IMG/VR virus record: IMGVR_UViG_3300030098_001234
Coordinates: 1 to 23,274 of that record
Direction: 5' to 3' (one strand)
Length of the DNA stretch: 23,274 bases
Origin: a virus
This document shows positions 1 through 22,609 of the stretch, piece after piece (position 1 is the stretch's first letter; every line of letters starts with the position of its first letter). The notes under the pieces are model-generated. The model saw only the letters and a program-made list of their open reading frames with translations. It had not been told where the DNA came from and did not search any database. The position numbers and the translations under genes were made by a program.

Positions 1-52
1 TTTTTAATTAAATGCAAAAAGTTGTTTACAAGATGGAAATAATTGATACCCT

Positions 53-116
53 CGGTAATTACCGCGCCCGGTCAGCTACACGTTATAATTACATATATAT
101 TACAGTGTAATTACAC
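53..116. promoter_or_regulatory. Operator-like cluster of TAATTA-centred palindromes
   Basis: Two perfect 12-base palindromes, CGGTAATTACCG (53-64) and GTGTAATTACAC (105-116), share the core GTAATTAC. A third, one-mismatch copy, TATAATTACA (84-93), lies between them. The centres are at about 58.5, 88.5 and 110.5, so they are 30 and 22 bases apart, close to three and two turns of B-DNA. The middle copy contains TATAAT, a consensus -10 box, and the last ends four bases before the ATG of the next gene. This arrangement suits a dimeric repressor covering a promoter. The protein that binds is unknown; the next gene product is one candidate (inference). Confidence 0.5.
84..89 (+). promoter_or_regulatory. 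Candidate -10 box TATAAT
   Basis: This is a perfect TATAAT hexamer inside the middle operator-like repeat. Transcription would start near 95-97 and leave a leader of about 24 bases before the ATG at 120. No good -35 hexamer lies 16-18 bases upstream, so it is either a weak or activator-dependent sigma-70-type promoter or a chance AT-rich match. Confidence 0.3.
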
Positions 117-119
117 GTA

Positions 120-584
120 ATGCTGCATAAGGAGATTCCATACGATGTAACCTGGCTTGAGTCGCTGTTTCTCGAGGCCGCAGCAACAGAGCGCAGACTG
201 CCGCCGGCAATCATCAAACGGAAACTTGCCAGCTGGCCCGAGTACGAACAATCCTGGCACGCATACAATGCAGCTGCTTTCTCACCAAAACCATTAAAAG
301 CATCACCAAAAGATATTGATAATTATTTTCTGGCGCTCGATATCTCTCTCGCCTATTGCAGCACAGAGCAGCGCCGGTTGATATGGGCCGTTAATTATTC
401 AGCGGTGCTGCGTAATGGATACATCCGAGAACGTGGGCCAGCCTGGGAAAAGCTTAGTAAAGTAAGTAAGGATCGTATCTCACCAAAGCGCGTCAAAGCA
501 AATTACCTGGATGCAATTGTTAAGCTTGCGTATCGCATGAAGATGCAACCAGAAAGATTGACGCAAAAAGTCATTACAAAGTGA
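120..584 (+). CDS. DUF6362-like phage protein
   Basis: This 154-residue protein resembles DUF6362 phage proteins. It has an N-terminal block with LEAAATERRLPP (about residues 18-29), then a WPEYEQSWHAY-type segment (about 39-49). A helical C-terminal half (about 85-150) follows, with the spacing of a helix-turn-helix (LSKVSKDRISPKRVKANYLDAI). Its biochemical role is unknown to me. The HTH-like end and its place next to the small terminase suggest DNA binding, either regulatory or packaging-related (inference). There is no Shine-Dalgarno sequence before the ATG; palindrome 105-116 sits where one would be. An AAGGAG at 128-133 lies inside the gene but leads to no usable in-frame ATG. Family assignment is from remembered sequence pattern only. 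Confidence 0.55.
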   Translation: MLHKEIPYDVTWLESLFLEAAATERRLPPAIIKRKLASWPEYEQSWHAYNAAAFSPKPLKASPKDIDNYFLALDISLAYCSTEQRRLIWAVNYSAVLRNGYIRERGPAWEKLSKVSKDRISPKRVKANYLDAIVKLAYRMKMQPERLTQKVITK

Positions 585-724
585 TTGCACGAAAGCACGA
601 AATATAGTACGCTTCCAGCTATAATTGCCAAGATCTTGCGATTAAGCTGCTTATATAGTGTCATTATACTGCCCAGACCATAGATCGCGGTGATTATTTT
701 TTCATATCATTTTCTGATATTTTG

Positions 725-758
725 CCAGGTGTAAGCCGCTCCACCGGTTTACACCTGG
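725..758. promoter_or_regulatory. Strong hairpin upstream of the small terminase gene
   Basis: The arms CCAGGTGTAAGCCG (725-738) and CGGTTTACACCTGG (745-758) pair over 14 positions, with one G-U, around a six-base loop. No T-run follows, so it is not a classical Rho-independent terminator. It lies 16 bases before the ATG at 775, just ahead of the AGGTAGGA ribosome binding site. The half-sites GTGTAA and TTACAC are the same as those in the palindrome at 105-116, so it could be a second operator site, an RNA processing site or a translational control hairpin. The rest of 585-774 holds a stray TATAAT at 620-625 without a matching -35 and no gene that I can see. Confidence 0.6.
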
Positions 759-774
759 TCAATAGGTAGGATCA

Positions 775-1191
775 ATGTCACGGCTAATGAACATAGAATT
801 AATGGAGAAGATCTGCGATCACTTGCTCAGCGGCAAGTCAATGCGCGAGATAGCAAAGATCGATGGATTTCCAAGCGATGATACAGTGTATCGATACATT
901 CAGAAGAATGACGACGCACATGAGATGTATACAAAAGCAAAAGCTATCCAGGGAGAGCGCATCCAGGAAGAGATCGACGAAGTGCTTAACAAACCTTTAC
1001 CGGTGGATCCAAAGCACATGATGGCAGAGGTACAGATGCGACGGCTAAAGGTAGATACATTGCAGAAGAGGCACACGCAGCTGCAACCGAAAGGCATAAG
1101 AAATAAGGCAGAAGATATGGCAGCACCAGGCATGAGCGGTACGATTACGTTGTCCTGGGAGAAAGGCGATGTTGACATCAAAGCTGGGTGA
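775..1191 (+). CDS. terS: Terminase small subunit (Sf6 gp1-like)
   Basis: At 138 residues it is close to the 140 of Sf6 gp1. An N-terminal helix-turn-helix (about residues 8-45; LLSGKSMREIAKIDGFPSDD followed by TVYRYIQ) matches the DNA-recognition region of this family. Next is the acidic RIQEEIDEVLN helix and the QMRRLKVDTLQKRH segment (about 87-100), which corresponds to the RLRVDxRKW oligomerisation region of relatives. By family knowledge the ring it forms recognises phage DNA and regulates the large subunit at the start of packaging. AGGTAGGA lies six bases before the ATG. The large subunit is 1.4 kb downstream, with a methyltransferase and small genes between, whereas the two terminase genes are more often adjacent. 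Confidence 0.75.
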   Translation: MSRLMNIELMEKICDHLLSGKSMREIAKIDGFPSDDTVYRYIQKNDDAHEMYTKAKAIQGERIQEEIDEVLNKPLPVDPKHMMAEVQMRRLKVDTLQKRHTQLQPKGIRNKAEDMAAPGMSGTITLSWEKGDVDIKAG

Positions 1192-1211
1192 TTTCCGTTG
1201 TGCATTACTGA

Positions 1212-1254
1212 CAATGCGTTCAATCGCACGCGCGAGTCCAGGGCGATTGCATTG
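1212..1254 (+). terminator. Possible weak terminator or RNA hairpin after terS
   Basis: CAATG (1212-1216) and CAATCGC (1221-1227) pair with GCGATTG (1243-1249) and CATTG (1250-1254). This gives a 12-pair stem with a four-base bulge and a 15-base loop, followed by TTTT (1255-1258). It starts 20 bases after the terS stop. The long loop, bulge and short T-run make it a poor terminator at best. The rest of 1192-1439 has no convincing gene. ATATATAA-like AT-rich sequence around 1390-1405 and the GAGG ribosome binding site at about 1431-1434 serve the next gene. Confidence 0.3.
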
Positions 1255-1439
1255 TTTTGCGACCGATCTGCGACCAGGCAGCGTCATCGTAGTTATTTTA
1301 TTGCAAAGCGTGGGGGATGGTGGCTGTTACGCTGCATATTTGCACATATACCGGCTGACCCTACCCCCGGCGACCGCACCGCGCGCTGTATATACATATA
1401 TAACCCAATCCGGACAAACACATTCACAATGAGGACACC

Positions 1440-1976
1440 ATGGGTAAACGCAGTGAATTTGACCGGATACCGAGAGATTTTTATCCGACACCTCCGTCAG
1501 CTATCAAACCATTGCTGCCGTACCTACATAATGCCGATGTAAAGCTGTTTTGTGAGCCGTGTGCTGGCGATGGACAGTTAATTGATATGTTAGAGCTTGC
1601 CGGCCTTATGTGCTGCTACAAGAGCGATATAGAGCCGCGTAGATCCGACATCGTGCAGCATGATGCGCTTGAGTTAGACGAGATGAAGATATTAGAGGCT
1701 GACGCGATAATTACGAACCCTCCTTGGCGACGTGATTTACTCCATCCGATGATCGAGTATTTTATGTCGCTAAAACCCACATGGCTGATTTTTGATGCGG
1801 ATTGGATGCACACTAAGCAAGCGAGAGAGTTAATAACCTATTGCCGGTTGATAGTATCTGTGGGTCGTGTCAAGTGGATCCCGGATAGCAAGCATACCGG
1901 TAAAGACAATGTGTGCTGGTATTTATTCACCAAGTACATGCAGACAAAGCAAACAGAATTTATAGGCCGTCAATGA
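1440..1976 (+). CDS. DNA methyltransferase, probably adenine-specific
   Basis: This 178-residue protein has the hallmarks of amino-DNA methyltransferases. DFYPTPP is near residue 13. The S-adenosylmethionine motif I is CEPCAGDG (38-45), and an acidic SDIEP (about 61-65) may contact the cofactor. The catalytic motif IV is NPPW (93-96). The combination of an early DFYPTP with NPPW is typical of phage-encoded N6-adenine enzymes; N4-cytosine activity cannot be excluded. The target site cannot be read from the sequence. Methylation could protect phage DNA from host restriction or mark it for packaging (inference). GAGGACACC precedes the ATG, and the stop overlaps the next start as ATGA. Confidence 0.8.
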   Translation: MGKRSEFDRIPRDFYPTPPSAIKPLLPYLHNADVKLFCEPCAGDGQLIDMLELAGLMCCYKSDIEPRRSDIVQHDALELDEMKILEADAIITNPPWRRDLLHPMIEYFMSLKPTWLIFDADWMHTKQARELITYCRLIVSVGRVKWIPDSKHTGKDNVCWYLFTKYMQTKQTEFIGRQ

Positions 1977-2155
1977 AAACTGTAGTTTTTATCCTGGTTA
2001 TATTAAAGGGATCGGAAGTGATGGAAGAGGCCGAGATCGGCAGCTATCAAGATTGCAGCTGGCATATGTCCTTAATAAATAAGCAAGGTGATGGCAATCC
2101 CTACAGTGCGTATTGCAAGCCTAAATTAAAGACGATTGTTGATCGCAATGGATAA
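1973..2155 (+). CDS. Small exported or membrane-associated hypothetical protein
   Basis: This is a 60-residue protein starting at the ATG that overlaps the methyltransferase stop (ATGA, 1973-1976). The frame stays open upstream to 1913, but that longer form would overlap the methyltransferase by 64 bases and lacks an ATG. Residues 2-11 (KTVVFILVIL) form a short hydrophobic segment like a minimal signal peptide or membrane anchor. The remainder is small and hydrophilic, with cysteines in QDCSWHM and AYCKPK that could pair outside the cytoplasm. I do not recognise a named family. Short proteins of this type occur in phage genomes without assigned function. It overlaps the next gene by eight bases. 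Confidence 0.6.
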   Translation: MKTVVFILVILKGSEVMEEAEIGSYQDCSWHMSLINKQGDGNPYSAYCKPKLKTIVDRNG

Positions 2156-2444
2156 CGTAAACAGACCGCCGCATTACACCGATGGTGAGATAGAGTGTAT
2201 AGATGCGCTGCGCTCTATGCTGGGCGACAGCTTTGGTGCGTTTTGCCAGGGAACGATCGTGCAGTATCTATGGCGCTATAAGCATAAGAATGGTGTCGAG
2301 GATCTCCGTAAAGCGGAGTGGTATTTAAACGCATTACTTAAATTTGAGGAGGACAAACATGCCTGGAGGTTACGGAAAATCCAAGAGTGCAATGCCGATG
2401 AAGAAGAAATCAATCTTAACGGCTGGACAAAAGACGCTTCCTAA
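2148..2444 (+). CDS. DUF3310 protein (T7 gp1.7 C-terminal-like)
   Basis: This 98-residue protein has the DUF3310 signature: VNRPPHYTDGEIECIDA near the N-terminus, FCQGTIVQYLWRYKHKNG in the middle and DLRKAEWYLNALL (about residues 60-75). The domain is common in phages and occurs in T7 gp1.7, a nucleotide kinase. This short protein has only the DUF3310 part, so a kinase label would go beyond the evidence. The ATG at 2148 is preferred over an upstream TTG at 2136 because VNRPPHY normally lies very close to the start. It overlaps the upstream gene by eight bases, consistent with translational coupling, and its 3' end overlaps the next small gene in another frame. Confidence 0.85.
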   Translation: MDNVNRPPHYTDGEIECIDALRSMLGDSFGAFCQGTIVQYLWRYKHKNGVEDLRKAEWYLNALLKFEEDKHAWRLRKIQECNADEEEINLNGWTKDAS

Positions 2445-2493
2445 AGATCTACAAAAGAAGATCGTAGCGTCGAAGATGAAGAAAAAAGCATAG
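2359..2493 (+). CDS. 44-residue basic hypothetical protein
   Basis: The ORF starts MPGGYGKSKSAMPMKKKS and ends KMKKKA. It is preceded by GAGGAGG (2347-2353) at ideal spacing, one of the strongest ribosome binding sites in the window. It overlaps the last third of the DUF3310 gene in another frame. The protein is very rich in lysine, with a Gly/Ser start and an amphipathic TLPKDLQKKIVASKMKKK end. It resembles the short MPGYGKSKS-type proteins found near terminase and portal genes of podoviruses, which have no known function. Binding to nucleic acid is possible from charge alone. The last codons run over an A6 stretch (2482-2487). Confidence 0.65.
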   Translation: MPGGYGKSKSAMPMKKKSILTAGQKTLPKDLQKKIVASKMKKKA

Positions 2494-2723
2494 ACGACAC
2501 GCTATTTCAGAAAAACGCGAGGTTCTTTGACAAGAACCAAGAACGAAAACGGCTGCATAGAGATTTTATGCTGCGGCAGCTGCGGCGAGAGTTAAGACAT
2601 GGAAATAAAAATCCCATACGCACCGCGCACAGTGCAGCAAGAACTACACGATCAGCTGGACAAACATCGATGGGCGGTAGTGGTGATGCACCGGAGAGCC
2701 GGCAAAACAGTGATGGCGATTAA
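2445..2723 (+). other. Open frame without ATG before terL (possible frameshift product)
   Basis: Between the DUF3310 stop and the first part of terL this frame is open. In 2488-2600 it reads like real protein: DDTLFQKNARFFDKNQ, then ERKRLHRDFMLRQLRREL. It has no ATG before 2568. The preceding 44-residue ORF enters this frame by a -1 step at AAG AAA AAA GCA TAG (2479-2493), where the lysyl-tRNA on the second AAA can re-pair one base back. The options are programmed -1 slippage, a non-AUG start, a one-base loss in the A-run, or no coding at all. The part after about 2600 overlaps terL and looks like noise. Confidence 0.25.
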
Positions 2724-3867
2724 CCATTTACTGCGCGAGGCTATCTTATGCGATAAACCAAACCCGAGATATGCGTATATAGCACCGACGTATCGCCAGG
2801 CTAAACAAGTTGCCTGGGATTATCTAAAACAGTTTGCGGTCAATATACCAATGGCGCGTTTTCACGAAACAGAACTGCGCTGCGATCTGCCTAATGGTGC
2901 AAGAATACAGCTGCTTGGATCTGAAAATCCGGCTAGCTTGCGTGGAATATATCTTGATATGGCTTGCCTGGACGAAATGGCGGATATGCCGGAGAACTTG
3001 TTCCCGGAAGTTATACGACCAGCCTTATCGGATCGTGAGGGCAAAGCATTATTTATTGGTACACCAAGAGGACACAATGCCTTTTTCGAACTATACGAGG
3101 CGGCCACCGCATCTAAGGATTGGTTCGCTGCAACGTACCCAGCGAGTAAAACCGGGATATTACCAGATACCGAACTGGAGTCGGCGCGGATTGGTATGTC
3201 AGAGGATCAGTATAACCAGGAGTATGAATGTTCCTGGGTCGCTAACGTACCCGGATCGATCTTTGGAAAAGAGCTACAAAAAGCGTTCCAGGATGGCCGC
3301 ATATCAAAAGTACCTTATGATTCCAGTGTCCGTGTGGACACGTTTTGGGATCTGGGCGTGGGCGATAGCACAGCGATTTGGTTTGTCCAGGTCGTAGGCC
3401 GGGCCGTACATTTTATAGATTACTACGAGGCAAGAGGTGAGGGATTACCCCACTATGCGCGAGTGCTGCAAGAGCGTGAGTATCTTTATGATAGCCACTA
3501 TGCGCCGCACGATATTGAAGTTAGAGAGTTAGGATCCGGCAAAAGCAGACGTGAGATAGCCTGGGATCTTGGAATAAATTTTCGTGTTGTACCAAAACTG
3601 CCTATTGATGATGGGATACACGCAGCGCAGCTGCTTATCGAGCGCGCCTGGTTTGACCGGGATAACTGCAAACACGGCCTTGAGGCATTACGACAATATC
3701 ATCGTGTGTATAACGAGCGCACACGATCCTTTTCTACAACGATAAAACACGACTGGTCATCGCATAGCGCGGATGCTTTTCGCTATAGCGCTATAGGATT
3801 GCGTGAAAATAAACGGCAATTTGCGCCAATGCAGCAAACAGCAATGAATGATTACCGCGTTTTCTAG
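2599..3867 (+). CDS. terL: Terminase large subunit
   Basis: This 422-residue packaging motor and headful or end-cutting nuclease acts at the portal vertex. The ATPase domain has Walker A HRRAGKT (31-37), Walker B IYLDMACLDE (117-126, catalytic E126) and the coupling motif GTPRG (154-158). The RNase H-like nuclease domain begins with FWDLGVGDST (catalytic D251) and ends with HDWSSHSADAFRY, whose last Asp is the expected metal ligand. The compact length and order fit the Sf6 gp2/T7 gp19-like range. The start is the ATG at 2599 with only a weak GAGAG upstream, so translation may depend on reading through from the preceding small frame. All catalytic motifs are intact. Confidence 0.95.
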   Translation: MEIKIPYAPRTVQQELHDQLDKHRWAVVVMHRRAGKTVMAINHLLREAILCDKPNPRYAYIAPTYRQAKQVAWDYLKQFAVNIPMARFHETELRCDLPNGARIQLLGSENPASLRGIYLDMACLDEMADMPENLFPEVIRPALSDREGKALFIGTPRGHNAFFELYEAATASKDWFAATYPASKTGILPDTELESARIGMSEDQYNQEYECSWVANVPGSIFGKELQKAFQDGRISKVPYDSSVRVDTFWDLGVGDSTAIWFVQVVGRAVHFIDYYEARGEGLPHYARVLQEREYLYDSHYAPHDIEVRELGSGKSRREIAWDLGINFRVVPKLPIDDGIHAAQLLIERAWFDRDNCKHGLEALRQYHRVYNERTRSFSTTIKHDWSSHSADAFRYSAIGLRENKRQFAPMQQTAMNDYRVF

Positions 3868-3875
3868 GAGATATC

Positions 3876-4460
3876 ATGGGATTTTTTACTGATTTTTTAA
3901 ATGCTATCAGCAATGTAGCGCAAGGTCGAGGGACAGACTTTGGCCGCAATACCGGCGCAGCGATAGACAGTTTTCAAAAAAGTGTAAGTTTCAGTGAGCC
4001 AACAAGATTGGATAGGTTTTTGGCTGGCCCAGGACAAAGCATAGATATGAGCGAAGCTGGTCGTGAAAAAAGATTTCAAGAAAATGTTGCAGCAAATGAA
4101 AGAGCTATGGCAGCAATGGCTGATATGCGTGATCCCGAGGGTAGACGCACTGATCCTAATACCGGGCGAACAGTTAGAGAAGAGCGCGGATTTGAGGAAA
4201 AAAGCACACGATCAACAATGACAAGCGGCGGCGGTAGCGGCGGCGGATCTGCAACAACAAGCGGCACAACAACAGAATTAAAACCACCGGTAGCACCAGC
4301 AACTGTTGCCGAGGATCCAGCGTCATCCGGTGAATTAGAAGATGAGGCAATGGCCACCGGCAAAAAAGGCCGTAAGGGAACAATCTTAACGTCAGCACAA
4401 GGTTTATTAACAGATGCACCGACACGCGATCGTCGTCGATTGAAAGGCTTGATAAATTGA
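3876..4460 (+). CDS. Virion-associated hypothetical protein with TILTSAQG tail motif
   Basis: This 194-residue protein starts MGFFTDFLNAISN, an amphipathic helix. It continues with a charged helical region (about residues 40-110), a Gly/Ser/Thr linker (about 116-135) and a Pro/acidic stretch. It ends in a basic segment GRKGTILTSAQG ... APTRDRRRLKG. The C-terminal TILT...PTR..LLG-type motif recurs at the ends of otherwise unrelated small proteins next to portal genes in podoviruses, so it may be a docking tail (inference). TAGGAGATATC precedes the ATG. The stop overlaps the next start as TTGA. Function unknown; a structural or assembly role is suggested by position. Confidence 0.6.
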   Translation: MGFFTDFLNAISNVAQGRGTDFGRNTGAAIDSFQKSVSFSEPTRLDRFLAGPGQSIDMSEAGREKRFQENVAANERAMAAMADMRDPEGRRTDPNTGRTVREERGFEEKSTRSTMTSGGGSGGGSATTSGTTTELKPPVAPATVAEDPASSGELEDEAMATGKKGRKGTILTSAQGLLTDAPTRDRRRLKGLIN

Positions 4461-4645
4461 GAATTAAGAGAACTAAGAATATTGCTGGCATGATGGGCCG
4501 TTTGTCACCACAAGGCAAAACCGGCATTTCAATGGCAATGGATATCGATCCTATGGAGCGTATGCAACAGCGGTTTGAGGGTCGAACAAAAGGCGGCAAT
4601 CCTAGAAAGATGAAACGCAAAACACTTATGACCGGAGGGTACTAA
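4457..4645 (+). CDS. 62-residue basic hypothetical protein
   Basis: Starting at TTG (4457), it overlaps the previous stop by four bases (TTGA), and its TAA overlaps the next ATG. If TTG is not used, the first ATG is at codon 12 (MMGRLSPQG). The protein is rich in Arg, Lys and Met, with a GRTKGGNPRKMKRKTLMTGGY end. I recognise no domain. It is the first of three tiny coupled genes between terL and the portal. Confidence 0.5.
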   Translation: MRIKRTKNIAGMMGRLSPQGKTGISMAMDIDPMERMQQRFEGRTKGGNPRKMKRKTLMTGGY

Positions 4646-4797
4646 TGGCTGCAAAAAAGGGTTTATATTACAACATCAACAGACGCAAGAAAGCTGGTAT
4701 ATCCAGGCCAAAAAGCGAGTCTACCATAACAGCAAAAGCCTATAAAAATATGCAAGCTGGTTTTCCGGATAGCAAGAAAAACAAGAAAAAAGCCTAA
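4645..4797 (+). CDS. 50-residue Lys-rich conserved podovirus protein
   Basis: The ORF begins MAAKKGLYYNINRRKKAG and ends GFPDSKKNKKKA, preceded by GGAGGGTACTA. It overlaps the TAA of the previous gene by one base and donates one base to the next ATG (TAATG). The pattern GLYxNIxxRxKAGxSRxKxxSTIT and KAYKNMxAGFP is familiar from many uncharacterised phage proteins at this genomic position. It is highly basic with no hydrophobic core. Binding DNA or an acidic portal surface would suit the composition, but there is no direct evidence. Confidence 0.7.
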   Translation: MAAKKGLYYNINRRKKAGISRPKSESTITAKAYKNMQAGFPDSKKNKKKA

Positions 4798-5069
4798 TGG
4801 TCGCCAAAAAATACCAGAATCCAAAAGGCGGATTGAACGAGGCTGGTCGAAAATTTTTTAAACGCACTGAGGGCAGCAATCTTAAAAGACCGCAGAAATC
4901 GGGAACAAGTGGTCGCCGCGTCAGTTTTGCCGCCAGATTTGCTGGGATGCGCGGCAAAATGAAAGATGAAAAAGGCCGTCCGACGCGCAAGGCACTTGCG
5001 TTAAAAGCCTGGGGATTTGGCAGTGTTGAGGCTGCACGAAACTTTGCCAAGCGAAATAAAAAGAGTTAG
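4797..5069 (+). CDS. DUF6321-like phage protein
   Basis: This 90-residue protein has GGLNEAGRKFF (about residues 11-21), NLKRPQKSG, RRVSFAARFAGMRGKMKDEK (about 40-59), GRPTRKALALKAWGFG and a charged end. The RxSFxARxxGMxGxMKDxxGxPTRKALAL pattern is the one I associate with DUF6321 phage proteins. Function is unknown; it lies directly before the portal gene in many podoviruses. It overlaps the previous stop as TAATG and ends two bases before the portal start, so the cluster is translated as a unit. Confidence 0.7.
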   Translation: MVAKKYQNPKGGLNEAGRKFFKRTEGSNLKRPQKSGTSGRRVSFAARFAGMRGKMKDEKGRPTRKALALKAWGFGSVEAARNFAKRNKKS

Positions 5070-5071
5070 AT

Positions 5072-6682
5072 ATGGAACCATCGAAGTTAGTACAAATGCT
5101 GCACAAACGCTATGAAACACTAGCGACACAGCGCAGCAACATCGAGAATAGATGGCAAGAGGTTGCTGATTTTTTCTTACCCAGGAAAGCCGATATCATC
5201 AACAAACGCACACCGGGCGAGAGAAAAGATCAAAGAATATTCGACTCCACGGCGCAACATGCGGTCGAATTGCTAGCGGCGAACTTACACGGCACATTGA
5301 CGAGTCCTAGTGTGCCGTGGTTTTCTATGCGCTATAGAAACAGAGAGTTCCAGGCAATTGATGCGTTGAACGAATGGCTAGAGAGATGCACAGAAATAAT
5401 GTACCAGGAGTTAGAGCGATCGAACTTTCAGCAAGAAATACACGAATTATATTATGATTTAGTTGTTTTTGGAACCGCAGCGCTGGCGATCGAGAAAGAA
5501 ATGGGCCAGGATATCCGGTTTTCTACCCGGCATATAGCGGAGATCTACATTGCCGAAAACCATGAGGGCCGTGTTGATACTGTCTATCGTAAGTATGAGC
5601 TCACCGCCAGGCAAGCTGAGCAAAAGTTTGGCAAAGAAAACCTATCGGAGAAAATACGTAAGTCGCTCGAGAACGATCCGTTAGAAAAACACGCTATAAT
5701 TAACGCTATTTATCCACGGCAAGATGCTGGAGGATTAGCAAAAGCAGCAAAAGACAAGCCGTTTGCGTCTATTCACTATTGTTTCGACAGCAAAACACTG
5801 ATGCAAGAAAGTGGTTTTGATAGTATGCCTATCGCCACACCCAGGTTTACTAAAGATAGTTCGAGTGTGTATGGCCATTCACCGGCGCATACAAGCCTTG
5901 CTGACACGATGATGGTGTCGAAAATGGCCGAGATTGGTATTCGCGCAGCGCAAAAGCAGCTGGATCCGCCGCTTATGGTTCCGGATGATGGCTATGTTTT
6001 GCCGGTACGAACATCACCGGGCGCGTTAAATTTTTATAGATCGGGATCAAGAGATCGTATTGAGCCGCTAAAAACAGACGCAAATAATCTGTTGCAGCTT
6101 AACCAGGAGGAGCGGCGGCAAGATCAGATTCGCCGTATCTTCTATGTCGATCAGCTGTTAGCGTCAACCGATAGAACAATGACGGCAACACAAACGCTGC
6201 AAATGCAAGAAGAGCGACTACGATTGCTGGGGCCGGTTCTTGGTCGATTGCAATCCGAATTACTCAAGCCTCTTATCGATAGGACGTTTGAATTGCTGCT
6301 TACCCAGGGCGTTTTACCGCCAGCACCGGAAGAACTGCAAGGACAAGATATAGATATCGAGTACGTATCACCGCTGGCAAAGGCACAAAAGATAGGCGAC
6401 CTACAAAATCTAGTGCGCGGAATCGAACTTATGACCGGGTTAGCCGAGGCTATACCAGGCATAACAGACTATCTCGATAACGATGGGTTAGTAAAATACA
6501 TCATCAATGTGACCGGTTTGCCGGCGCAAGTCATTTTATCCGATCAGCAAGTGGCCCAGATGCGCCAGCAACAGCAAGAGGCAGCGGCAGCGCAGCAAGA
6601 AGCGCAGCAAGAAATGGATAACTCTGAGCAAGCGCGTAACGTAGCGCCGCTCGTACAAGCGCTGCAAGGCCAGGCTGAATGA
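5072..6682 (+). CDS. Portal protein (T7-type head-tail connector)
   Basis: At 536 residues it matches T7 gp8 (536) and the Head-tail_con family. The N-terminus has QRSNIENRWQEVADFFLPRK, and residues 60-90 contain FDSTAQHAVELLAANLHGTLTSP-like sequence, the family's most conserved block. The middle includes GHSPAHTSLADTMMVSKM. The C-terminus is Gln/Ala-rich and helical (about 485-536), as expected for the barrel. Twelve copies form the DNA channel at one capsid vertex, contacting TerL during packaging and the tail adaptor afterwards (family knowledge). AAAGAGTTAGAT provides a weak ribosome site before the ATG. The stop overlaps the next ATG (ATGA). Confidence 0.95.
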   Translation: MEPSKLVQMLHKRYETLATQRSNIENRWQEVADFFLPRKADIINKRTPGERKDQRIFDSTAQHAVELLAANLHGTLTSPSVPWFSMRYRNREFQAIDALNEWLERCTEIMYQELERSNFQQEIHELYYDLVVFGTAALAIEKEMGQDIRFSTRHIAEIYIAENHEGRVDTVYRKYELTARQAEQKFGKENLSEKIRKSLENDPLEKHAIINAIYPRQDAGGLAKAAKDKPFASIHYCFDSKTLMQESGFDSMPIATPRFTKDSSSVYGHSPAHTSLADTMMVSKMAEIGIRAAQKQLDPPLMVPDDGYVLPVRTSPGALNFYRSGSRDRIEPLKTDANNLLQLNQEERRQDQIRRIFYVDQLLASTDRTMTATQTLQMQEERLRLLGPVLGRLQSELLKPLIDRTFELLLTQGVLPPAPEELQGQDIDIEYVSPLAKAQKIGDLQNLVRGIELMTGLAEAIPGITDYLDNDGLVKYIINVTGLPAQVILSDQQVAQMRQQQQEAAAAQQEAQQEMDNSEQARNVAPLVQALQGQAE

Positions 6683-6897
6683 TGGAGATAGAGGATTTAC
6701 AACGTATATATCGCGCCGTGTTTACGACAGATGATGGCGCAACAGTATTAGACGATCTTAAAAAAAGATTTGGTCTATACAAGAGTACGCATGTTCCGGG
6801 CGATCCCCATGAAAGTGCGTTCTATGAGGGGCAGCGCAATGCGATGCTCATAATTTTACGAATGTTAGAAGAAAGAAAGGATCTTAACAGTGAATGA
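6679..6897 (+). CDS. Bbp19-like structural protein
   Basis: This 72-residue protein carries LQRIYRAVFTTDDGATVLDDLKK, then VPGDPHESAFYEGQRNAMLIIL. The pattern F.td.G..vL.dL...f, followed by GDP...afrEGqR..vl.i, is that of Bbp19 of Bordetella phage BPP-1, a small protein placed between portal and scaffold genes. Its exact role is unclear; an assembly role at the portal or head is inferred from position. Two ATGs in tandem (6679, 6682) are possible starts. It overlaps the portal stop and ends inside the scaffold start. Confidence 0.75.
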   Translation: MMEIEDLQRIYRAVFTTDDGATVLDDLKKRFGLYKSTHVPGDPHESAFYEGQRNAMLIILRMLEERKDLNSE

Positions 6898-7711
6898 AAC
6901 AGCAGAGGTAATTGAGGACACTCAATCTCAAGAAACAGTAGCACAAGAAACACCAGTCGCCTTTGCCGATACATTGGGCGAGGAGTTCAAAGGCAACCCT
7001 ATATTTGCAAATTTCCAGGATGTTAACGGCCTGGCAAAGTCGTACATGCATGCGCAGCGCATGATCGGCGCTGACAAAATAGCCATACCAGGCAAACATG
7101 CCACCGATGACGAGCGGCTCGAAGTCTATCGTAAGCTAGGATCACCGGCGGATGTATCCGGATATGAAATAAGTTTTCCGGATTTATTTACAGATGAAGA
7201 ACAAAGCGCATTTAAGGAAACAGCTTTAGTCAATGGTTTGAGTAGTAGCCAGGCAAGCAAGGTTGTTGATTTTCTTAATGACACATTTACACAAGCGCAA
7301 TCACAAAACGAGTATGCTGCACAGCAAATTGTAAACGAAAATCGTGCAGAACTCGAGCAAGAGTGGGGCAACGCAATGCCGCAAAAGCTTGAAAGAGCAA
7401 GATCAGCGGTAGTTAGTTTGTTAGGCAGCGATGATATTATGGATAATATCGAGCTTGCCGACGGAACATACTTAGGCGATAACCCACAGATTATAAGAAT
7501 GTTTGCCGCTTTAGCTGACCAGATAAGCGAAGATGCCCTGGGCGGCCCTACAAGCGAGCAGATCAGTACACCGGCAGAACTTGAGAAAGAAAAACGCGAG
7601 TTGATGGTTGCCGGTTCACCTTATTGGAGTAGTCAACATCCAGAGCATGAAACCTACGTACAGCGTGTTCTGCAACTAAACGAGCAGCTATATCCAGAGC
7701 CGGAGGGGTAA
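6890..7711 (+). CDS. Capsid assembly scaffolding protein
   Basis: This 273-residue protein starts at GTG with AAAGGA upstream and overlaps the Bbp19-like gene by eight bases. It is acidic. It has a disordered Glu/Thr/Gln-rich N-terminus (1-25) and a DTLGEEFKGNPIF-type segment. An NGLAKSYMHAQRMIGADKIAIPG region (about 45-70) follows, then ERLEVYRKLGSPADVSGYE, a motif common to podovirus scaffolds. Long helices and ELEKEKRELM near the end complete it. It should guide capsid shell formation and then leave. Its place immediately before the capsid gene and after the portal supports the assignment. Confidence 0.85.
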   Translation: MNETAEVIEDTQSQETVAQETPVAFADTLGEEFKGNPIFANFQDVNGLAKSYMHAQRMIGADKIAIPGKHATDDERLEVYRKLGSPADVSGYEISFPDLFTDEEQSAFKETALVNGLSSSQASKVVDFLNDTFTQAQSQNEYAAQQIVNENRAELEQEWGNAMPQKLERARSAVVSLLGSDDIMDNIELADGTYLGDNPQIIRMFAALADQISEDALGGPTSEQISTPAELEKEKRELMVAGSPYWSSQHPEHETYVQRVLQLNEQLYPEPEG

Positions 7712-7805
7712 TCTTAGGATCTTTCCAGGTTAAACTATCTATTTGGGCCTTATTTATAAGACAACCCAGCTTCAATTTTAACTTAAATTAACGGAGGTAC
7801 TTATT
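7712..7805 (+). promoter_or_regulatory. Leader of the capsid gene with strong ribosome binding site
   Basis: This 94-base gap is one of the few non-coding gaps in the structural block. It ends in CGGAGGTACTTATT before the ATG at 7806, a strong Shine-Dalgarno site suited to the most abundant virion protein. TTATTTATAAG at about 7749-7759 contains a possible -10 (TTATAA) but has no clear -35. No terminator is visible. Confidence 0.4.
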
Positions 7806-8911
7806 ATGAGTACACAAATCACTACGGCTTTCGTTAATCAGTTTTCGCAAAACATACAGTTATTATCGCAGCAAATGGGTTCATTGATGCGAAACACTGT
7901 ACGACAGGAAACTGTGACCGGCGAAAAAGCCTTTTTCGAGCAGATTGGTAGTGCAGTGGCGCAAAAGAGAGCCAGCCGCCATGCTTCAACTCCCATTATG
8001 GATACCCCACACGCCCGTTAACTTTCAGCGGCTTAATGTAGAAATACATTTCGAAAAACTCTGTGAACTCAGAAAAAGTCTTACTAAGATAATTCTGAGC
8101 CAAGCCTAGAAATAGGAAGGTGCAACGACTATTCCGAGAGGAAGTAGGATCAAGTGATCCGAAGCGCAGAGCATCCAACAAGGATGATGATATAGTCTGA
8201 TCTATATGGTGACATATAGCAGCCGAAAGGCGGTTTTGTTTTAACGAAACAAAGCGAACACAAATGAGAATGGTTACTATGAGCGATTATGAATACGCTG
8301 ATCTGGTTGATGACCAGGACAAAATTCGTATGCTTATTAGTCCGGAATCAACATACGGCAAGGCAGCAGCGGCAGCTATCGGCAGAGCAATGGATGATGA
8401 AATCATCGGTGCTTTAGGCGGTACAGCTAAAACTGGTGTGTCCGGTGGAACTAGCACAGCATTGCCTAGTAGTCAGAAAATCGCGCATGGTAGTGCCGGT
8501 TTGACAATCGCTAAGCTAATTAGTGCTAAAAAAATTATGGATCAAAACAGTGTTGATCCCTCAATCGAGAGATATATTGTTGTATCTCCCGAGCAGATCG
8601 AGGATCTACTCAACACAACATCCGTAACTAGCGCAGACTTTAACAGTGTAAAAGCGCTGGTAAATGGAACTGTTGATTCATTTATGGGATTTAAATTCAT
8701 TACATCCAATCGTTTAAAAGACGATGGCACATCACGACTATGCTATGCGTATGCGCGTGAGGGTGTAGTAATGGCTCTTGGTAAGGACGTGACGGCGAAG
8801 ATCGATCCTCGACCAGACAAATCCTATTCAACACAAATTTACTACTGTTCAACTTTTGGTGCGTCCAGGATGCAAGAAGAGATGGTAGTTGAATTAGCTT
8901 GTAACGAATAA
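7806..8911 (+). CDS. Major capsid protein, split by a group I intron (join 7806-8018, 8267-8911)
   Basis: The two exons join to 285 residues. Exon 1 gives AFVNQFSQNIQLLSQQMGS and KAFFEQIGSA, and ends in DTPHAR. Exon 2 continues RMVTMSDYEYADLVDDQDKI. The rejoined DTPHARRMVTMSDYEY matches the uninterrupted D-T-P-H-x-R-R-x-V-T-M-x-D-Y-E motif of podovirus capsid proteins, so no residue is lost or gained. Without splicing, exon 1 meets a TAA at 8019-8021, made by the first three intron bases. The 3' part would then need the ATG at 8264, which is an intron codon with no good ribosome site. The rest of exon 2 (SPESTYGKAAAAAIGRAMDDEII onward) is the expected HK97-fold shell protein. It lies between the scaffold and the probable decoration protein. 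Confidence 0.9.
8019..8266 (+). ncRNA. Group I self-splicing intron in the major capsid gene
   Basis: This is a compact intron of about 248 nt with no ORF. P1: exon end CCGU (8015-8018) pairs with GCGG (8028-8031), giving the diagnostic U-G pair at the 5' site. The last intron base is G8266. P2: AATGTA-GAAA-TACATT (8035-8050). P7: GACTAT (8127-8132) pairs with ATAGTC (8192-8197), inside core elements GCAACGACTA and GATATAGTC typical of group I R and S strands. Between them are TCC-GAGA-GGA (8133-8142), GGATC-AAGT-GATCC (8147-8160) and a P8-like CATCC/GGATG stem. P9: CTATATG-GTGA-CATATAG (8202-8219), followed by GCC-GAAA-GGC (8222-8231) and a third hairpin (8235-8253). The extra helices near P7 suggest subgroup IA. 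A short P10 (TTC 8024-8026 with GAA 8268-8270) is possible. Confidence 0.9.
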
Positions 8912-8924
8912 GGGGGGCTAGATC

Positions 8925-9428
8925 ATGGCGAATAAAAATTCAACTTTAGTTAGTAACTTTGAGGCTGATCCCCAGGTTATGAATCATGCACGACAGCATC
9001 ACGGAATCAAGAGAGTTATACAGGGTTCTGTAGCTCTTGCTGCCGGCGATCTGAGTGCTAGTGATACTGTAATGCTTGCGCCAATTCCGACAAACGCAAG
9101 TGTTATCAGCATTAAACTATTCAATGACGACCTGGATAGTGGTTCTACCAATACTTGCGACGTGGGATTATATTCTGCGGATGGTAACGTAACAGCGGTC
9201 GATGATGACGCATATGCAAGCGCTATCACCGATCTACGTGCTGCGGTTACTACTGGTACTGAGGTAGCTTTTGAGGCGAGAAACATCAATACAATGGGTC
9301 AGAGAGTTTGGGAAGATGCCGGGCAATCAAGCGATCCAGGCGGATACTACAATATCGGTCTGACGTTCGATGCAGCTGGTGACACTGCCGGCGATCTCTC
9401 CTTTATGATTGAGTACGTCGTAACCTAA
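8925..9428 (+). CDS. Probable capsid decoration or minor head protein
   Basis: This 167-residue protein follows AAGGGGGGCTAG and lies directly after the capsid gene. After a polar N-terminus it has GIKRVIQGSVALAAGDLSAS and DTVMLAPIPTNASVISIKLF, then alternating beta-like strands and FEARNINTMGQRVWEDAG. It ends in a strand, LSFMIEYVVT. Proteins with this 'x-G-x-x-x-L-A-x-G-D-x-x-x-x-D-x-x-x-L-x-x-I-P' layout commonly sit beside podovirus capsid genes and are annotated as head decoration or structural proteins. I cannot name a specific family, and the assignment rests mainly on position and beta-rich composition. Confidence 0.5.
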   Translation: MANKNSTLVSNFEADPQVMNHARQHHGIKRVIQGSVALAAGDLSASDTVMLAPIPTNASVISIKLFNDDLDSGSTNTCDVGLYSADGNVTAVDDDAYASAITDLRAAVTTGTEVAFEARNINTMGQRVWEDAGQSSDPGGYYNIGLTFDAAGDTAGDLSFMIEYVVT

Positions 9429-9447
9429 ATTTAACCAGGGGTGATCT

Positions 9448-10053
9448 ATGTCGAGTGTAGTAGAAATAGCTAATAATGCGCTTAATGCGATTGGAGCGAC
9501 CAATATAACAGCGCTGGATGAAAACTCCAAAGCAGCGCGCGTAATTAGTCAAGTCTATACAAACGTCCGAAATGAAACATTTCGAGCTCATCCCTGGAAC
9601 TGTTTAATTAAGAGGGCCGATCTTGCCAAAGACACGACCGGCCCGACTTACGGATATAGTAATGCGTATACGTTGCCGACCGATCCTTTTTGCTTGCGTG
9701 TTCTTGAGTTTAGCAATGGTACGTCAACATATCCTTTTGATAATCTTACAAACAATACCGGCGGCAGCGTCTTTGTTATCGAGGGCCGAAAGCTGCTAAC
9801 AGACGAAGATACAGCAAAAATTAAGTTTGTTGCGCGTATAGAAGATCCAAACGAGTATGATGCTGGATTAGTAGGCACATTATCAGCTAGGCTTGCTTAT
9901 TCTATAGCCTATGCTTTGACCGGATCCACAACAGTAGTGCAGCTGCAAAAAGTATTGTATGACGAGCGATTGCGTGAGGCACGATTTATCGATGCAACAG
10001 AGGGAGCGCCACAACGTATTGAGGCAAGTGATCTTATTGAATCGAGGTTATAA
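9448..10053 (+). CDS. Tail tubular protein A (head-tail adaptor, gp11-like)
   Basis: This 201-residue protein has the gp11 family pattern: VEIANNALNAIGATNITALDENSKAA at the N-terminus, and VYTNVRNETFRAHPWNCLIKRADL (about residues 31-55). LPTDPFCLRVLEF follows, then EGRKLLTDEDTAKIKFVAR, and finally helical SARLAYSIAYALTGS. T7 gp11 is 196 residues. It forms the adaptor ring between portal and nozzle. Its TAA (10051-10053) shares a base with the next ATG, as expected for coupled synthesis of the two tail proteins. CAGGGGTGATCT gives a ribosome site. Confidence 0.9.
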   Translation: MSSVVEIANNALNAIGATNITALDENSKAARVISQVYTNVRNETFRAHPWNCLIKRADLAKDTTGPTYGYSNAYTLPTDPFCLRVLEFSNGTSTYPFDNLTNNTGGSVFVIEGRKLLTDEDTAKIKFVARIEDPNEYDAGLVGTLSARLAYSIAYALTGSTTVVQLQKVLYDERLREARFIDATEGAPQRIEASDLIESRL

Positions 10054-12059
10054 TGGCACGATCTGCGCCAGCTATACAATCCTTTACGGCTGGAGAGTTA
10101 TCTCCCAGGCTAGAGGGCAGAGTAAATATAGATAAGTATAGAGAGGGATTATCAGAACTTACTAACATGGTATCCATGCCGCATGGCGGTGTTGCGCGGC
10201 GACCAGGCACAGAGTTTCTAGGCGAGGTAAAATCAAGCAGCGTAAAGACACGACTAATACCTTTTCAGTTTAAGACAAGCGATACGTATATTCTCGAGTT
10301 TGGTGAACAGATTATGCGTGTGTTTCGCAACGGCTTGCAAGTTTTGTCTGCAACCACAAAGACAATAAGCGCAATAACGCAAGCAAATCCAGGTGTTATA
10401 ACATCAAATTCGCATGGATACAGCAACGGCGATGAGGTGTTTATCGACTCTATCGTTGGGATGACAGAGCTAAATACACGTAATTATAAGGTTGCTAACG
10501 TCACAACAAACACATTTACGCTAACCGATCTATTTGGTAACGCGATCAATACAACAAGTTTTACAGCATATGCTAGCGCCGGTAACATCAACGAGATATT
10601 TGAGGTAGCGACTCCCTATGGCGAGGATGATCTACCGAGGCTGCGTTTTGCACAAAGCGCAGATTTAATGTATATCGTGCATCCTAGTTATGCGATACGA
10701 ACTTTAACCAGAACAGCACACACAACATGGACGTTTGCAACACCATCAATTACCGGTTCGCCTAGTCCTAACCTTAATAATTCTAGCGATAACTTTCCAA
10801 GCGTAGTTACGTTTTTTGAGCAGCGTCTTGTTTTTGCTAATACAAACAATAATCCGCAGACAATATGGTTTTCTAAAACAGCGGATTTCAATAATTTTAC
10901 TGCTGGCAGCAATGCTGATGATGCGTTGATATATACGATCGCCAGCAACCAGGTAAACGCAATACGATTTATGACGGCGACGCGCGTGCTTACTGTAGGT
11001 ACGTCGGGCGGCGAATATGTCGTCAGTACAACGAATGATGGGCCGATAACACCGACAACAACACTTATTCGTAAGTACAGTAATTATGGTTCAGCAAACG
11101 CGGATCCTATACAAGTTGCAGACGTTACTTTGTTTTTGCAACGCGGCAACAGAAAGGTACGTGAGTTTCGATTTGTAGGGGATGTTGATACCAGCGGCTA
11201 TACGGCCCCGGATATGACTATTCTTGCGGAGCACATTACTGAGGGCGGCATCACAGAGTTTGCCTATCAGCAAGAGCCGGACAGTGTGGTGTGGGCCTTG
11301 CGATCGGATGGTGTTTTGCTAGGTCTAACATATCGCCGGGAAGAACAAGTTGTTGCCTGGCATAAGCACACAATAGGTGGTGTATTTAGTTCCGGTGATG
11401 CAGTAGTCGAGAGCATAGCGACATTGCCTACAGATACTGGTGAGGATGAGTTATACATGATAGTTAAAAGAACTATCAACTCACAAACAAAGCGCTATGT
11501 TGAGCGATTGAAGTTATTTGATTTTGGAACGTCGGCAACGTCTGCATTTTTTGTTGATAGCGGTCTTACGTACAGCGGCAGCGCTGTAACATCACTAGGG
11601 GCATTGCATCACTTAGAGGGCGAAACAGTCAGCATCCTTGGTAATGGTGGATCGCATGCCGATAAAACAGTTAGCAGCGGTACTATTAGTTTAGATGTAT
11701 CCGCAACAACGGCAGCAGTAGGATTAGGGTACACGTCCAATTTACAGACACTAAGATTAGAAAGCGGATCCGTCGATGGTACTAGCCAGGGCAAGCCAAA
11801 ACGTATTCATCACATAACGCTGCGTTTGTTTCGCACTGTTGGTATTGAGGTCGGTTCGTCCTCGAGTGACGCGGATCGTGTGCCTTTTCGTGATAGCAGC
11901 ATGGCTATGGATCAAGCGGTTAGTTTGTTTACCGGTGATAAGGATATTGAGTTTGCCGGTGGTTTTGAGGAGGACGATCGCATATTTGTTCGGCAAAACC
12001 AGCCGCTGCCTCTCACTGTCCTGGCATTATATGCGCGTATGAACACTTTTGATGTATAG
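10053..12059 (+). CDS. Tail tubular protein B (tail nozzle, gp12-like)
   Basis: This 668-residue protein starts with SFTAGELSPRLEGRVNIDKY and SMPHGGVARRPGTEFLGE, the classical start of podovirus tail nozzle proteins. PFQFKTSDTYILEFGE follows. Residues about 102-180 contain a small beta module, with VITSNSHGYSNGDEVFI and YKVANVTTNTFTLTD. I associate it with the FCCH-like (ubiquitin-activating enzyme) fold often seen inserted in these proteins. The remaining beta-rich region includes TFFEQRLVFANTNNNPQTIW and the propeller-like repeats of the family. It forms the distal tail through which DNA leaves. All blocks expected for a full-length protein are present. Confidence 0.9.
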   Translation: MARSAPAIQSFTAGELSPRLEGRVNIDKYREGLSELTNMVSMPHGGVARRPGTEFLGEVKSSSVKTRLIPFQFKTSDTYILEFGEQIMRVFRNGLQVLSATTKTISAITQANPGVITSNSHGYSNGDEVFIDSIVGMTELNTRNYKVANVTTNTFTLTDLFGNAINTTSFTAYASAGNINEIFEVATPYGEDDLPRLRFAQSADLMYIVHPSYAIRTLTRTAHTTWTFATPSITGSPSPNLNNSSDNFPSVVTFFEQRLVFANTNNNPQTIWFSKTADFNNFTAGSNADDALIYTIASNQVNAIRFMTATRVLTVGTSGGEYVVSTTNDGPITPTTTLIRKYSNYGSANADPIQVADVTLFLQRGNRKVREFRFVGDVDTSGYTAPDMTILAEHITEGGITEFAYQQEPDSVVWALRSDGVLLGLTYRREEQVVAWHKHTIGGVFSSGDAVVESIATLPTDTGEDELYMIVKRTINSQTKRYVERLKLFDFGTSATSAFFVDSGLTYSGSAVTSLGALHHLEGETVSILGNGGSHADKTVSSGTISLDVSATTAAVGLGYTSNLQTLRLESGSVDGTSQGKPKRIHHITLRLFRTVGIEVGSSSSDADRVPFRDSSMAMDQAVSLFTGDKDIEFAGGFEEDDRIFVRQNQPLPLTVLALYARMNTFDV

Positions 12060-12067
12060 GTAAAACA

Positions 12068-12583
12068 TTGGATTTCTTAACAGTATTTAATTTAATAGCT
12101 GCCGGATCAACAATTCTGGGCGGCATCAACGATAAAAATGCAGCGGATAATGCTGCGGCAGCGGCACAACAAGCGTCAAACTTTAACGCTAATATTATCG
12201 AGCGTGATATTGATTTGCTGGAAAAACAGCGTCAATTTGTAAACGCAAACTTTGGTGTAAGCAACGATCGTAAAAAGCAAAGCTTCAAGGCAGTCCAGGG
12301 CGAAGTAAAAGCAAACTATGCTTATGGTGGCATCGATATATCGGAGGGAACACCAATATCGGTTCTTAGAAAAAATGCTAGGGAAATGAAATTCGAACTG
12401 GATACCGATAAGTTTAACAACGACGTGACAAACATGCAGATTGATGACGCGCAAGAAAATGCCAAGTTAAACGCACAGCTTGCACGTATGGAGGGCGGAT
12501 CAGCTGCCGCAAGTTTACGCGCGCAAGGCACTGCAAGTCTTATTAAGAGTTTTGGATCTGCGGCACGAACACTAGCATCATAG
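12068..12583 (+). CDS. Internal virion (ejection) protein, gp14-like
   Basis: This 171-residue protein starts at TTG, with AGGTAAAACA upstream and an eight-base gap after the nozzle gene. The N-terminus is a small hydrophobic helix (FLTVFNLIAAGSTILGGI), followed by Ala-rich helices. It contains EKQRQFVNANFGVSND and EVKANYAYGGIDISEGTPISVL. The 'A..GG.d...GT..v' block is typical of the shortest ejection protein in T7-like phages (T7 gp14, 196 residues). These proteins enter the cell envelope at infection and help to build the DNA channel. Function is by family and position; overall sequence identity to T7 gp14 is expected to be low. Confidence 0.75.
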   Translation: MDFLTVFNLIAAGSTILGGINDKNAADNAAAAAQQASNFNANIIERDIDLLEKQRQFVNANFGVSNDRKKQSFKAVQGEVKANYAYGGIDISEGTPISVLRKNAREMKFELDTDKFNNDVTNMQIDDAQENAKLNAQLARMEGGSAAASLRAQGTASLIKSFGSAARTLAS

Positions 12584-12590
12584 GTGATAA

Positions 12591-21027: not shown

Positions 21028-21031
21028 ATAC

Positions 21032-22594
21032 ATGACAATCAGTACAACGACGATCTCGAAGAGTTATTCGGGAAACGGATCGACTCACTCTTTTGCATAT
21101 GATTTTAAGATTTTTGCAGATGCGGATCTTACAGTTATTATTAGATCCTCTACCGGTGTTGAAACAGTAAAGACACTCAACACGCATTACATTGTAACTG
21201 GTGCTGGAGTATCGAGCGGCGGCACTATTTTATTTAAATTTAACACTGGCAATGCGTCGGACGCTCATCACTCGACAAGTGATTTTAGGCCAGCCTCCGG
21301 GGAAACAGTTGTTATTCGCTCAGAACTAGCAAACACACAGACAATGGATCTAGTGGCTAACGATCCATTTCCAGCAGAAACCCTGGAAACAAACATGGAC
21401 AAGCTTGTCCGTATGGTGCAACAGCATGACGAAGAATTAGGCCGGTCACTAAAGCTATCGCGTACAAATACAATGACATCGACCGAGTTTACCACGTCAG
21501 CAACAGATCGAGCGAGTAAATTAATAGCTTTCGACACAACCGGTGAATTGAGCATCGCACAAGAAATAGGTGAGTTTAAAGGTGATTGGGCGGCAAGCAC
21601 TGCCTATGTTCAGCGTGATATTGTAAAAGATACGAGCACAAACAATATATTTATAGTCAACGCAGCGCATACAAGTTCCGGTTCACAACCTCTTACAACT
21701 AATGCAAACAGCGCCAAGTATGATTTATTGGTAGATGCGGCAAGTGCCACTACAGCGCAAACAGCAGCGGCCAGTAGTGCAACGGCAGCTGCATCGTCAG
21801 CCACGGCAGCTGCGTCCAGCGCATCAACGGCAAGTGGTCACAAAGATACGGCAACGACAAAAGCGTCTGAAGCAGCGTCATCGGCAACGGCAGCAGCTGC
21901 GAGTGCAGCAGCAGCAGCGACTAGCGCGGATAACTTTGATGATGTTTACCTGGGAGCAAAGTCAAGTGAACCATCAACGGACAATGACGGCGATGCGTTA
22001 AATGCTGGCGATCTTTTCTATGATACTACTGCGTCGGCAATAAAAGTATGGACGGGTTCAGCATGGCAAAACGTAACACAAGCATCATTAACATCGGTTG
22101 CGTCGGATAGTTCTCCGCAGCTTGGCGGTGATCTTGATGTTGTAACGCATGCTCTTGTATCAACAAGCAATCGTAATATTGCGCTGACACCAAACGGCAC
22201 TGGAGTTGTGCAAATCGACGGAACAACTGGAGTAGATATTTCGCAAGGTGCTATATCTATCAAGAATGGCGGTGTGCAATCTTATGTACGTTTTTATTGC
22301 GAAAGTTCTAATGCACACTATGCACAGCTGACTGCGCCAGCACACGCAGATTTTTCGGGCAACATATCAATAGTTCTGCCAGCAACCGCTGGAACTATAG
22401 CACTGACATCACAACTACCAACATCGGGCATATCCAGTGGTAACGTCGCAACATTTACGTCGGGTGTCGCTGACGATGATTTTTTAAGAGTAAATGGTAC
22501 ATCGATTGAGGGTAGGAGTGCATCAGAAGTAGCGAGCGATATTGGTGCAGCAACAACAGACGAAGCAACCGCATTAGCACTGGCACTTTCGTAG
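21032..22594 (+). CDS. Tail fibre protein (T7 gp17-like N-terminus)
   Basis: This 520-residue protein begins with the T7 tail fibre attachment domain (about residues 1-140): YSGNGSTHSFAYDFKIFADA, the LNTHYIVTGAGVSSGGTILF block and TLETNMDKLVRMVQQHDEEL. Next comes a central Ala/Ser/Thr tract (about 235-300) with repeats of the type SSATAAASSATAAASSAS, likely a trimeric coiled shaft. Beta-rich modules follow: DLFYDTTASAIKVWTGSAWQ (a short domain common in marine phage fibres), LTPNGTGVVQIDGTTGVDIS, and AQLTAPAHADFSGNISIVLP. The C-terminus (SASEVASDIGAATTDEATAL) resembles the ends of shorter fibres that dock a further protein, so downstream genes may provide the receptor tip. Confidence 0.85.
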   Translation: MTISTTTISKSYSGNGSTHSFAYDFKIFADADLTVIIRSSTGVETVKTLNTHYIVTGAGVSSGGTILFKFNTGNASDAHHSTSDFRPASGETVVIRSELANTQTMDLVANDPFPAETLETNMDKLVRMVQQHDEELGRSLKLSRTNTMTSTEFTTSATDRASKLIAFDTTGELSIAQEIGEFKGDWAASTAYVQRDIVKDTSTNNIFIVNAAHTSSGSQPLTTNANSAKYDLLVDAASATTAQTAAASSATAAASSATAAASSASTASGHKDTATTKASEAASSATAAAASAAAAATSADNFDDVYLGAKSSEPSTDNDGDALNAGDLFYDTTASAIKVWTGSAWQNVTQASLTSVASDSSPQLGGDLDVVTHALVSTSNRNIALTPNGTGVVQIDGTTGVDISQGAISIKNGGVQSYVRFYCESSNAHYAQLTAPAHADFSGNISIVLPATAGTIALTSQLPTSGISSGNVATFTSGVADDDFLRVNGTSIEGRSASEVASDIGAATTDEATALALALS

Positions 22595-22609
22595 TAAAGG
22601 AGAAAATAC

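Follow-up and report, generated by a model that had tools for sequence, protein, structure and literature searches.

Genomic setting of the locus

The stretch of DNA analysed here (the window, a virus record of 23,274 bp) carries the late genes of a podovirus, with an Sf6-type small terminase, a large terminase, a head-tail connector and tail proteins (Table 1). The head-tail connector is ~50% identical to that of Pelagibacter phages, e.g. HTVC010P. The early part of the genome is absent from the window and was supplied by six 36-kb relatives (G001-G004, G006 and G007). Because an integrase (PF00589) and a C1-type HTH protein (PF01381) are present in both of the 36-kb relatives scanned with Pfam, these phages are probably temperate; four proteins of the leftward operon received no Pfam name in the scan of the relatives. 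The presumed major capsid gene is split in the window into ORFs 7806-8021 and 8264-8911 by a group I intron at 8009-8219 (RF00028, 96.8 bits); it is split at a different place in G003 and intact in G004.

Table 1. Features of the window around the gene for the DUF6362 protein.
Feature	Position	Strand	Remarks
Window	1..23,274		virus record, late genes of podovirus
Small ORF	33..110	+	25 codons, overlaps array; peptide without visible selection
Conserved nucleotide block	33..160	.	87 nt before DUF6362 and ~40 nt of coding start
Site 1, palindrome CGGTAATTACCG	53..64	.	conserved core GTA-AT-TAC or GTA-GC-TAC
Half-site CTAC	76..79	+	overlaps direct repeat TACACGTTAT (77-86)
Near-copy ATAATTAC	85..92	.	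overlaps TATAAT (84-89); relatives keep half-site only
Half-site TTAC in TTACAGTGTAA	100..103	+	CTAC in sister group
Site 3, palindrome GTGTAATTACAC	105..116	.	core as site 1 (GTA-AT-TAC or GTA-GC-TAC)
TACACGTAAT, second copy of direct repeat TACACGTTAT	112-121
DUF6362 protein	120..584	+	predicted HTH, Q21-like fold (weak match); no Shine-Dalgarno sequence
Late-promoter-like block	585..625	+	TTGCAC (585-590), TATAGT (603-608), TATAAT (620-625)
Direct repeats GCACGAAA in late-promoter-like block	587-594, 595-602	+	6-bp tandem, period 8
RNA hairpin	725..758	+	covarying stem, invariant loop CTCCAC, directly before terS, no T-run
Terminase small subunit (Sf6 type)	775..1191	+	start of packaging/structural genes

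Two samples of loci were compared. The first comprises 20 loci including the window, with L019 (no gene start) and L021 (distant) left out; its haplotypes form a window-like group A and a sister group, B plus C, which are 71-73% identical in the DUF6362 protein. For the family set, 80 further DUF6362 loci were kept of 105 relatives, and five with matches near the locus edge (L270, L290, L292, L299 and L304) were dropped. The remaining 75, with the window, L013 and L016, gave 78 genes in 19 clusters (single linkage, 80% identity), each scored on the one representative with the most upstream DNA. DUF6362 had one match in plasmid records and none in the genome contig collection; four query sequences found no match in the 'phages' collection, and two additional DNA-pattern scans yielded no new group.

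A conserved pair of palindromes precedes DUF6362

A sequence-only reading of this DNA had described two palindromes flanking a near-copy over a -10 box and proposed that a repressor binds them cooperatively. Both perfect 12-bp palindromes are indeed present (sites 1 and 3), and the centre spacings of 30 and 22 bases are borne out. The motif search that it proposed confined exact GTAATTAC to two places in the window, namely these two sites. A lone 12-bp palindrome is ordinary here, because the window holds nine perfect palindromes of at least 12 bp against 6.7 +- 2.6 expected in Markov simulations; two palindromes less than 100 bp apart that share an 8-bp core arose in 1 of 300 simulations. The pair, whose absence upstream of the gene in relatives had been named as a finding that would count against it, stands before DUF6362 in all 20 loci compared, 51, 52 or 53 bp apart. 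A partly covered locus outside this count, L080, also keeps both sites. When the records of nine relatives were searched, eight contained the pair, together with 0-3 further GTARYTAC matches each.

The surrounding details proved less durable. The near-copy and the TATAAT exist in the window as described but are not conserved: the former is not palindromic in the sister group, and some relatives have TATTAT or TATACT in place of the latter. At site 1, L008 and the sister group do not keep the outer flanks (CGG/CCG) intact. A proposed fourth site, TTTAATTAAA at 3-12, occurs in only 4 of the 20 loci and was rejected.

Conservation extends beyond the palindromes themselves. Among seven A-type loci with the same upstream ORF (six distinct rows), diversity per site is 0-0.06 over -80 to +40 around the DUF6362 start, and 0.03-0.39, mostly above 0.1, in the other 20-nt bins of -400 to +300. 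For DUF6362 itself, dS between A genes and the window is 0.25-0.91, while the ORF that overlaps the array (72 coding nt) has a dS of 0-0.13 and a dN similar in size. Low dS with similar dN, together with the dip in diversity, means that the constraint acts on nucleotides and not on the peptide of the overlapping small ORF.

Half-sites change in concert between two groups

In the sister group, both cores read GTAGCTAC. Groups A and B differ at 29 of 88 aligned bases, and seven YTAC/GTAR half-sites are found in A, six of them at the same aligned place in B. In tests that were framed after the data had been seen and that rest on the A-to-B branch only, random placement of the 29 differences preserved two palindromes in 0.19% of trials and gave two altered sites that were still palindromes in 0.02% (null 2e-4), and the joint replacement of TTAC by CTAC in five of the six shared half-sites had a null of 1e-5. 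The swapped repeat word suggests a fast-changing site of DNA-protein recognition.

The HTH parts of C1, TerS and a small HTH protein show little difference between groups with different units, and the presumed recognition helix of DUF6362 differs between the two groups. We do not claim DUF6362 as the binder with switched specificity, because a tandem GCACGAA repeat 3' of its gene is kept in both.

Repeat arrays across the DUF6362 family

Short repeats also precede DUF6362 in more distant relatives. We counted the most frequent 6-mer upstream of the gene over 350 nt (over 119 nt in the window) and compared it with 1307 control windows, which pool loci of differing composition: the count was reached by at most 37 controls in 15 of 19 clusters, and by at most 17 in 11 of them. 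The four clusters without enrichment include L271, which has a helicase. Shuffling of the nearest 130 nt gave p <=0.05 in 6 of 19 clusters (L249 0.39, L262 0.54), a weaker result in part because some arrays lie beyond these 130 nt, and when non-overlapping copies were counted over 250 nt, the window and L013 did not stand out. Two clusters that passed narrowly (L240 and L265) may be compositional, because their sequence is GC-rich and coding. Two cluster members, L252 and L256, have no array.

The unit depends on the lineage, and includes AATTAC, AGCTAC, GATTAC, AATAAC, AATACT, ACCGCA, GGCGCA and GCGCAC, among others. Several lineages have about three direct copies at 9-11 bp, as in relatives such as L232, L246 and L233, with an inverted copy and hairpins after them. 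The window lineage showed no regular direct repeat of 11 bp; its half-sites are 18, 13, 12 and 11 columns apart. In L277, L275, L291 and L308 the array lies within an ORF and is visible as a low-complexity peptide. This ORF before DUF6362 (L277:1056-1463, L291:1107-1502 and relatives) consists in its first half of the translated repeat array (SDYTVSDYS, NNYKVNNYK) and is more ordinary in its second half; it had no Pfam match.

Between close relatives, the unit is replaced and the layout of the array retained. This was the case for L262 and L264 (DUF6362 98.5% identical; CGCGCA versus CGGTTC), L261 and L266 (92.7%; TTTGTGCGCA versus CATCGGGGCGCA), and L234 and L246 (88.3%). The difference of L249 from L248 and L250 may be an exchange of the whole cassette, because the upstream gene differs as well. 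A search of open-licence literature found no description of these arrays. The palindromes of the window are the dyad part of a short repeat array that stands before DUF6362 across this uncultured phage family, and its reading as a sequence-specific DNA-binding array is well supported.

DUF6362 and the late-promoter-like block

The sequence-only reading had considered the DUF6362 protein a candidate repressor. Its HTH look holds, but the nearest match to its predicted fold is the Q antiterminator. A first structure model (pLDDT 67.3) was too poor; with the second (pLDDT 75.8), the best VIA-align matches are five chains of phage 21 Q21, at Z 6.9-7.3 with 112-117 residues aligned (top row: Z 7.3, rmsd 3.9, 113 aligned), values that make the match only a lead, because in helical proteins a Z below 8 can be accidental or reflect a common arrangement of helices. 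Next comes a sigma factor (Z 5.5) and, lower, an AlpA complex (4.1). Foldseek alone gave the Q21 match an E of 1.2, and a search of BFVD returned one nameless match (E 2e-4). The DUF6362 sequence had no match in the PDB, no sequence similarity to Q21 was found, and no paper on DUF6362 appeared in the full text of open-licence PMC papers.

The position of the gene resembles that of phage 21 Q, as it lies directly before the late genes. In the window terS follows, and a terS-like sequence motif lies downstream in 11 of 19 cluster representatives. A terminator-like site is found within 230 nt after DUF6362 in 45 of 78 loci, compared with 19 of 319 control segments. Here the window departs from phage 21: no T-run terminator was found after the gene in the window, L013 or L016, where there is a hairpin without a T-run. 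To our knowledge, a repeat array before the regulator gene is also no part of a known Q module. A possible further likeness lies immediately downstream of the gene in the window, where 6-bp repeats stand in tandem with a period of 8; passages of PMC6606751 describe 21Q as binding two 6-bp direct repeats, at positions -21 and -13. This tandem is broken in L010, L011, L016 and L017, and the core TTG[AC][AC]N15[TC]AGTA is present in 7 of 78 loci. Given the model and the gene's position, DUF6362 may work like a Q module; we do not class it as one, because the fold match is weak and the window has no T-run terminator. If it does work in this way, Pfam DUF6362 (PF19889) would gain a function as a late-gene antiterminator.

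RinA/Ltr of staphylococcal phages offers a second comparison. As described in parts of PMC9867676 and PMC13123087, it is a protein of ~130 aa whose gene precedes the late genes and which binds at DNA repeats; there, however, the repeats lie after the regulator gene and upstream of the late genes, whereas the present array lies before the regulator.

Two further elements were noted in this region. A palindrome in the late-promoter-like block, CAAGATCTTG at 629-638, has one copy per genome in six of six relatives. The hairpin before terS shows compensated changes in 9 of 15 pairs, and its loop has a complement, GGTGGA, close to the start of terS in L003-like phages.

A candidate origin of replication

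The reading that we tentatively put first is that the lineage-specific DNA-binding array is an iteron-type origin lying before a Q-like late regulator. The repeated half-sites would be bound cooperatively by a probably dimeric protein that recognises their sequence and whose specificity co-evolves with the array. The origin would lie between the early/replication genes and the late regulator; DUF6362 would associate with RNA polymerase at the promoter that follows its own gene and take it through a terminator into the late operon. In lambda, the origin lies upstream of Q.

This reading fits the array layout, the neighbouring helicase genes and the switching of units. Pfam places an AAA_25 helicase gene just upstream in five of six clusters (L233, L246, L255, L261 and L271), four of which have the array; none was found on the fragment before L232. 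Two things weaken it: the skew, and the irregular array without a recognised initiator in the window lineage. No GC-skew minimum at the array was found in 12 genomes examined, although skew is a weak test because it follows gene direction, and the window lineage yielded no recognisable initiator or helicase gene.

Known iteron origins share with the array short repeated dyads or half-sites, partly in coding sequence and near replication genes, as well as variation of the unit. According to parts of PMC8263062, the semi-palindromic iterons of the PLE satellite bind RepA, and their variation leads to escape from the nuclease Odn; lambda ori lies within gene O, as stated in a passage of PMC6022878. 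The present array differs in that no skew minimum or initiator was found with it, and in that its units in the window are few and irregular.

The fuller proposal, namely an origin-like array before a Q-like antiterminator whose word is rewritten whole between near-identical temperate phages while the layout is kept, is a doubtful one. Under it, diversifying selection would act on the recognition code, exerted for example by superinfection incompatibility, satellites or origin-directed nucleases. If true, these phages would provide a natural series of DNA-protein recognition systems in which specificity has changed in concert between close relatives, together with a testable reason for that change.

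An operator of the late-regulator gene

A rather unlikely but serious alternative is that the array is a transcriptional operator of DUF6362, with a phage protein at two dyads five turns apart repressing or activating this gene and so timing late expression. This is close to the idea of the sequence-only reading, with a different target. What survives of the cooperative-repressor geometry is a conserved array of dyads at the DNA level, its two sites separated by about five helical turns, located before DUF6362 and near the head of the late operon. Its constant place before DUF6362 fits an operator as well as it fits an origin. Furthermore, the conserved block reaches to +40 of the gene, the 51-53 spacing is kept despite indels, and the block stays where the upstream gene has been swapped. 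Repression over a -10 box, however, could not be upheld: a sigma-70-type promoter was looked for in the array block of the window and not found, and the TATAAT there varies. Also against an operator are L275, L291 and L308, where the array inside an ORF lies roughly 190-330 nt before DUF6362, and the close likeness of the HTH parts mentioned above where the unit differs.

The absence of another repressor, as the earlier reading had remarked, applies to the window; relatives carry a C1-type repressor gene outside it, and this gene has different sites. GTAAC-N7-GTTAC occurs 1-3 times in each of the six 36-kb genomes, and one copy in five of these genomes sits in a divergent promoter region between the C1-type gene and a small HTH gene. 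In G002 the sites are present, but the motif search found no repressor gene. Neither GTAATTAC nor GTAGCTAC occurs in the divergent region of the five genomes in which both genes were located. Thus, while lambdoid C1 operators are likewise dyad sites on phage DNA and the relatives have a C1-type HTH gene, the promoter sites of that gene are GTAAC-N7-GTTAC and not GTAATTAC, and the reading as an operator of the C1-type repressor was rejected. Additional GTAAC-N7-GTTAC sites lie at one or two places ~3-5 kb from the divergent promoter in G001, G002 and G003 (L147-L150, L143-L144), and are perhaps more operators of the C1-type protein.

RNA, peptide and chance

An action of the array as RNA, in which leader hairpins or a helix between site 1 and site 3 control DUF6362 translation and the small ORF delivers ribosomes to a gene without a Shine-Dalgarno (SD) sequence, is improbable, even though several observations agree with it. 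In the window and nine relatives, an SD before DUF6362 is absent in 10 of 10, and the small-ORF stop is found at -9 to +11 nt relative to the gene start; the distant L021 has the same ORF bridge as the window lineage. Translational coupling from the small ORF to DUF6362 is plausible, but coupling alone would not account for the constraint on bases. Of the ten small-ORF starts compared, six have a strong SD and four a weak one (window, L004, L005 and L009).

The folding results are similarly divided. Folds with z <=-2.5 occur in 8 of 19 clusters, but the window element folds no better than its shuffles (z about -0.2; -0.03). In GC-rich relatives, the antisense strand folds about as strongly as the sense strand, which favours DNA dyads over RNA, though not decisively. 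Sites 1 and 3 are complementary and could form a helix in each of the nine haplotypes, and two of its pairs covary. When the fold takes in 45 nt of the gene, the pairing probability of this helix is at most 0.01 in all nine; without this stretch it reaches up to 0.79 in L008. This RNA helix was set aside, since the covariation agrees with it but the pairing probability in context is near zero.

It is very improbable that a small protein or leader peptide is conserved and that the palindromes are a by-product of the codons GGT AAT TAC. Conservation does begin at the ATG at window position 33, the start of the small ORF, where different upstream genes end directly (a ~40-codon ORF, a C5 methylase or a PAPS-reductase-like gene), and the SD is strong at most starts. 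However, the changes are mostly non-synonymous, and the sites persist in haplotypes whose reading frame and stop have shifted; conservation of the peptide was rejected on this substitution pattern. Least credible of all is that the palindromes are chance and without function, for although single ones are about as common as expected, conservation, compensated changes and the arrays in relatives stand against it.

In L008, the small ORF is preceded by a cassette (L008:1108-2897) comprising a C5 cytosine methylase gene and a PAPS-reductase-like gene, which most other A-type loci lack.
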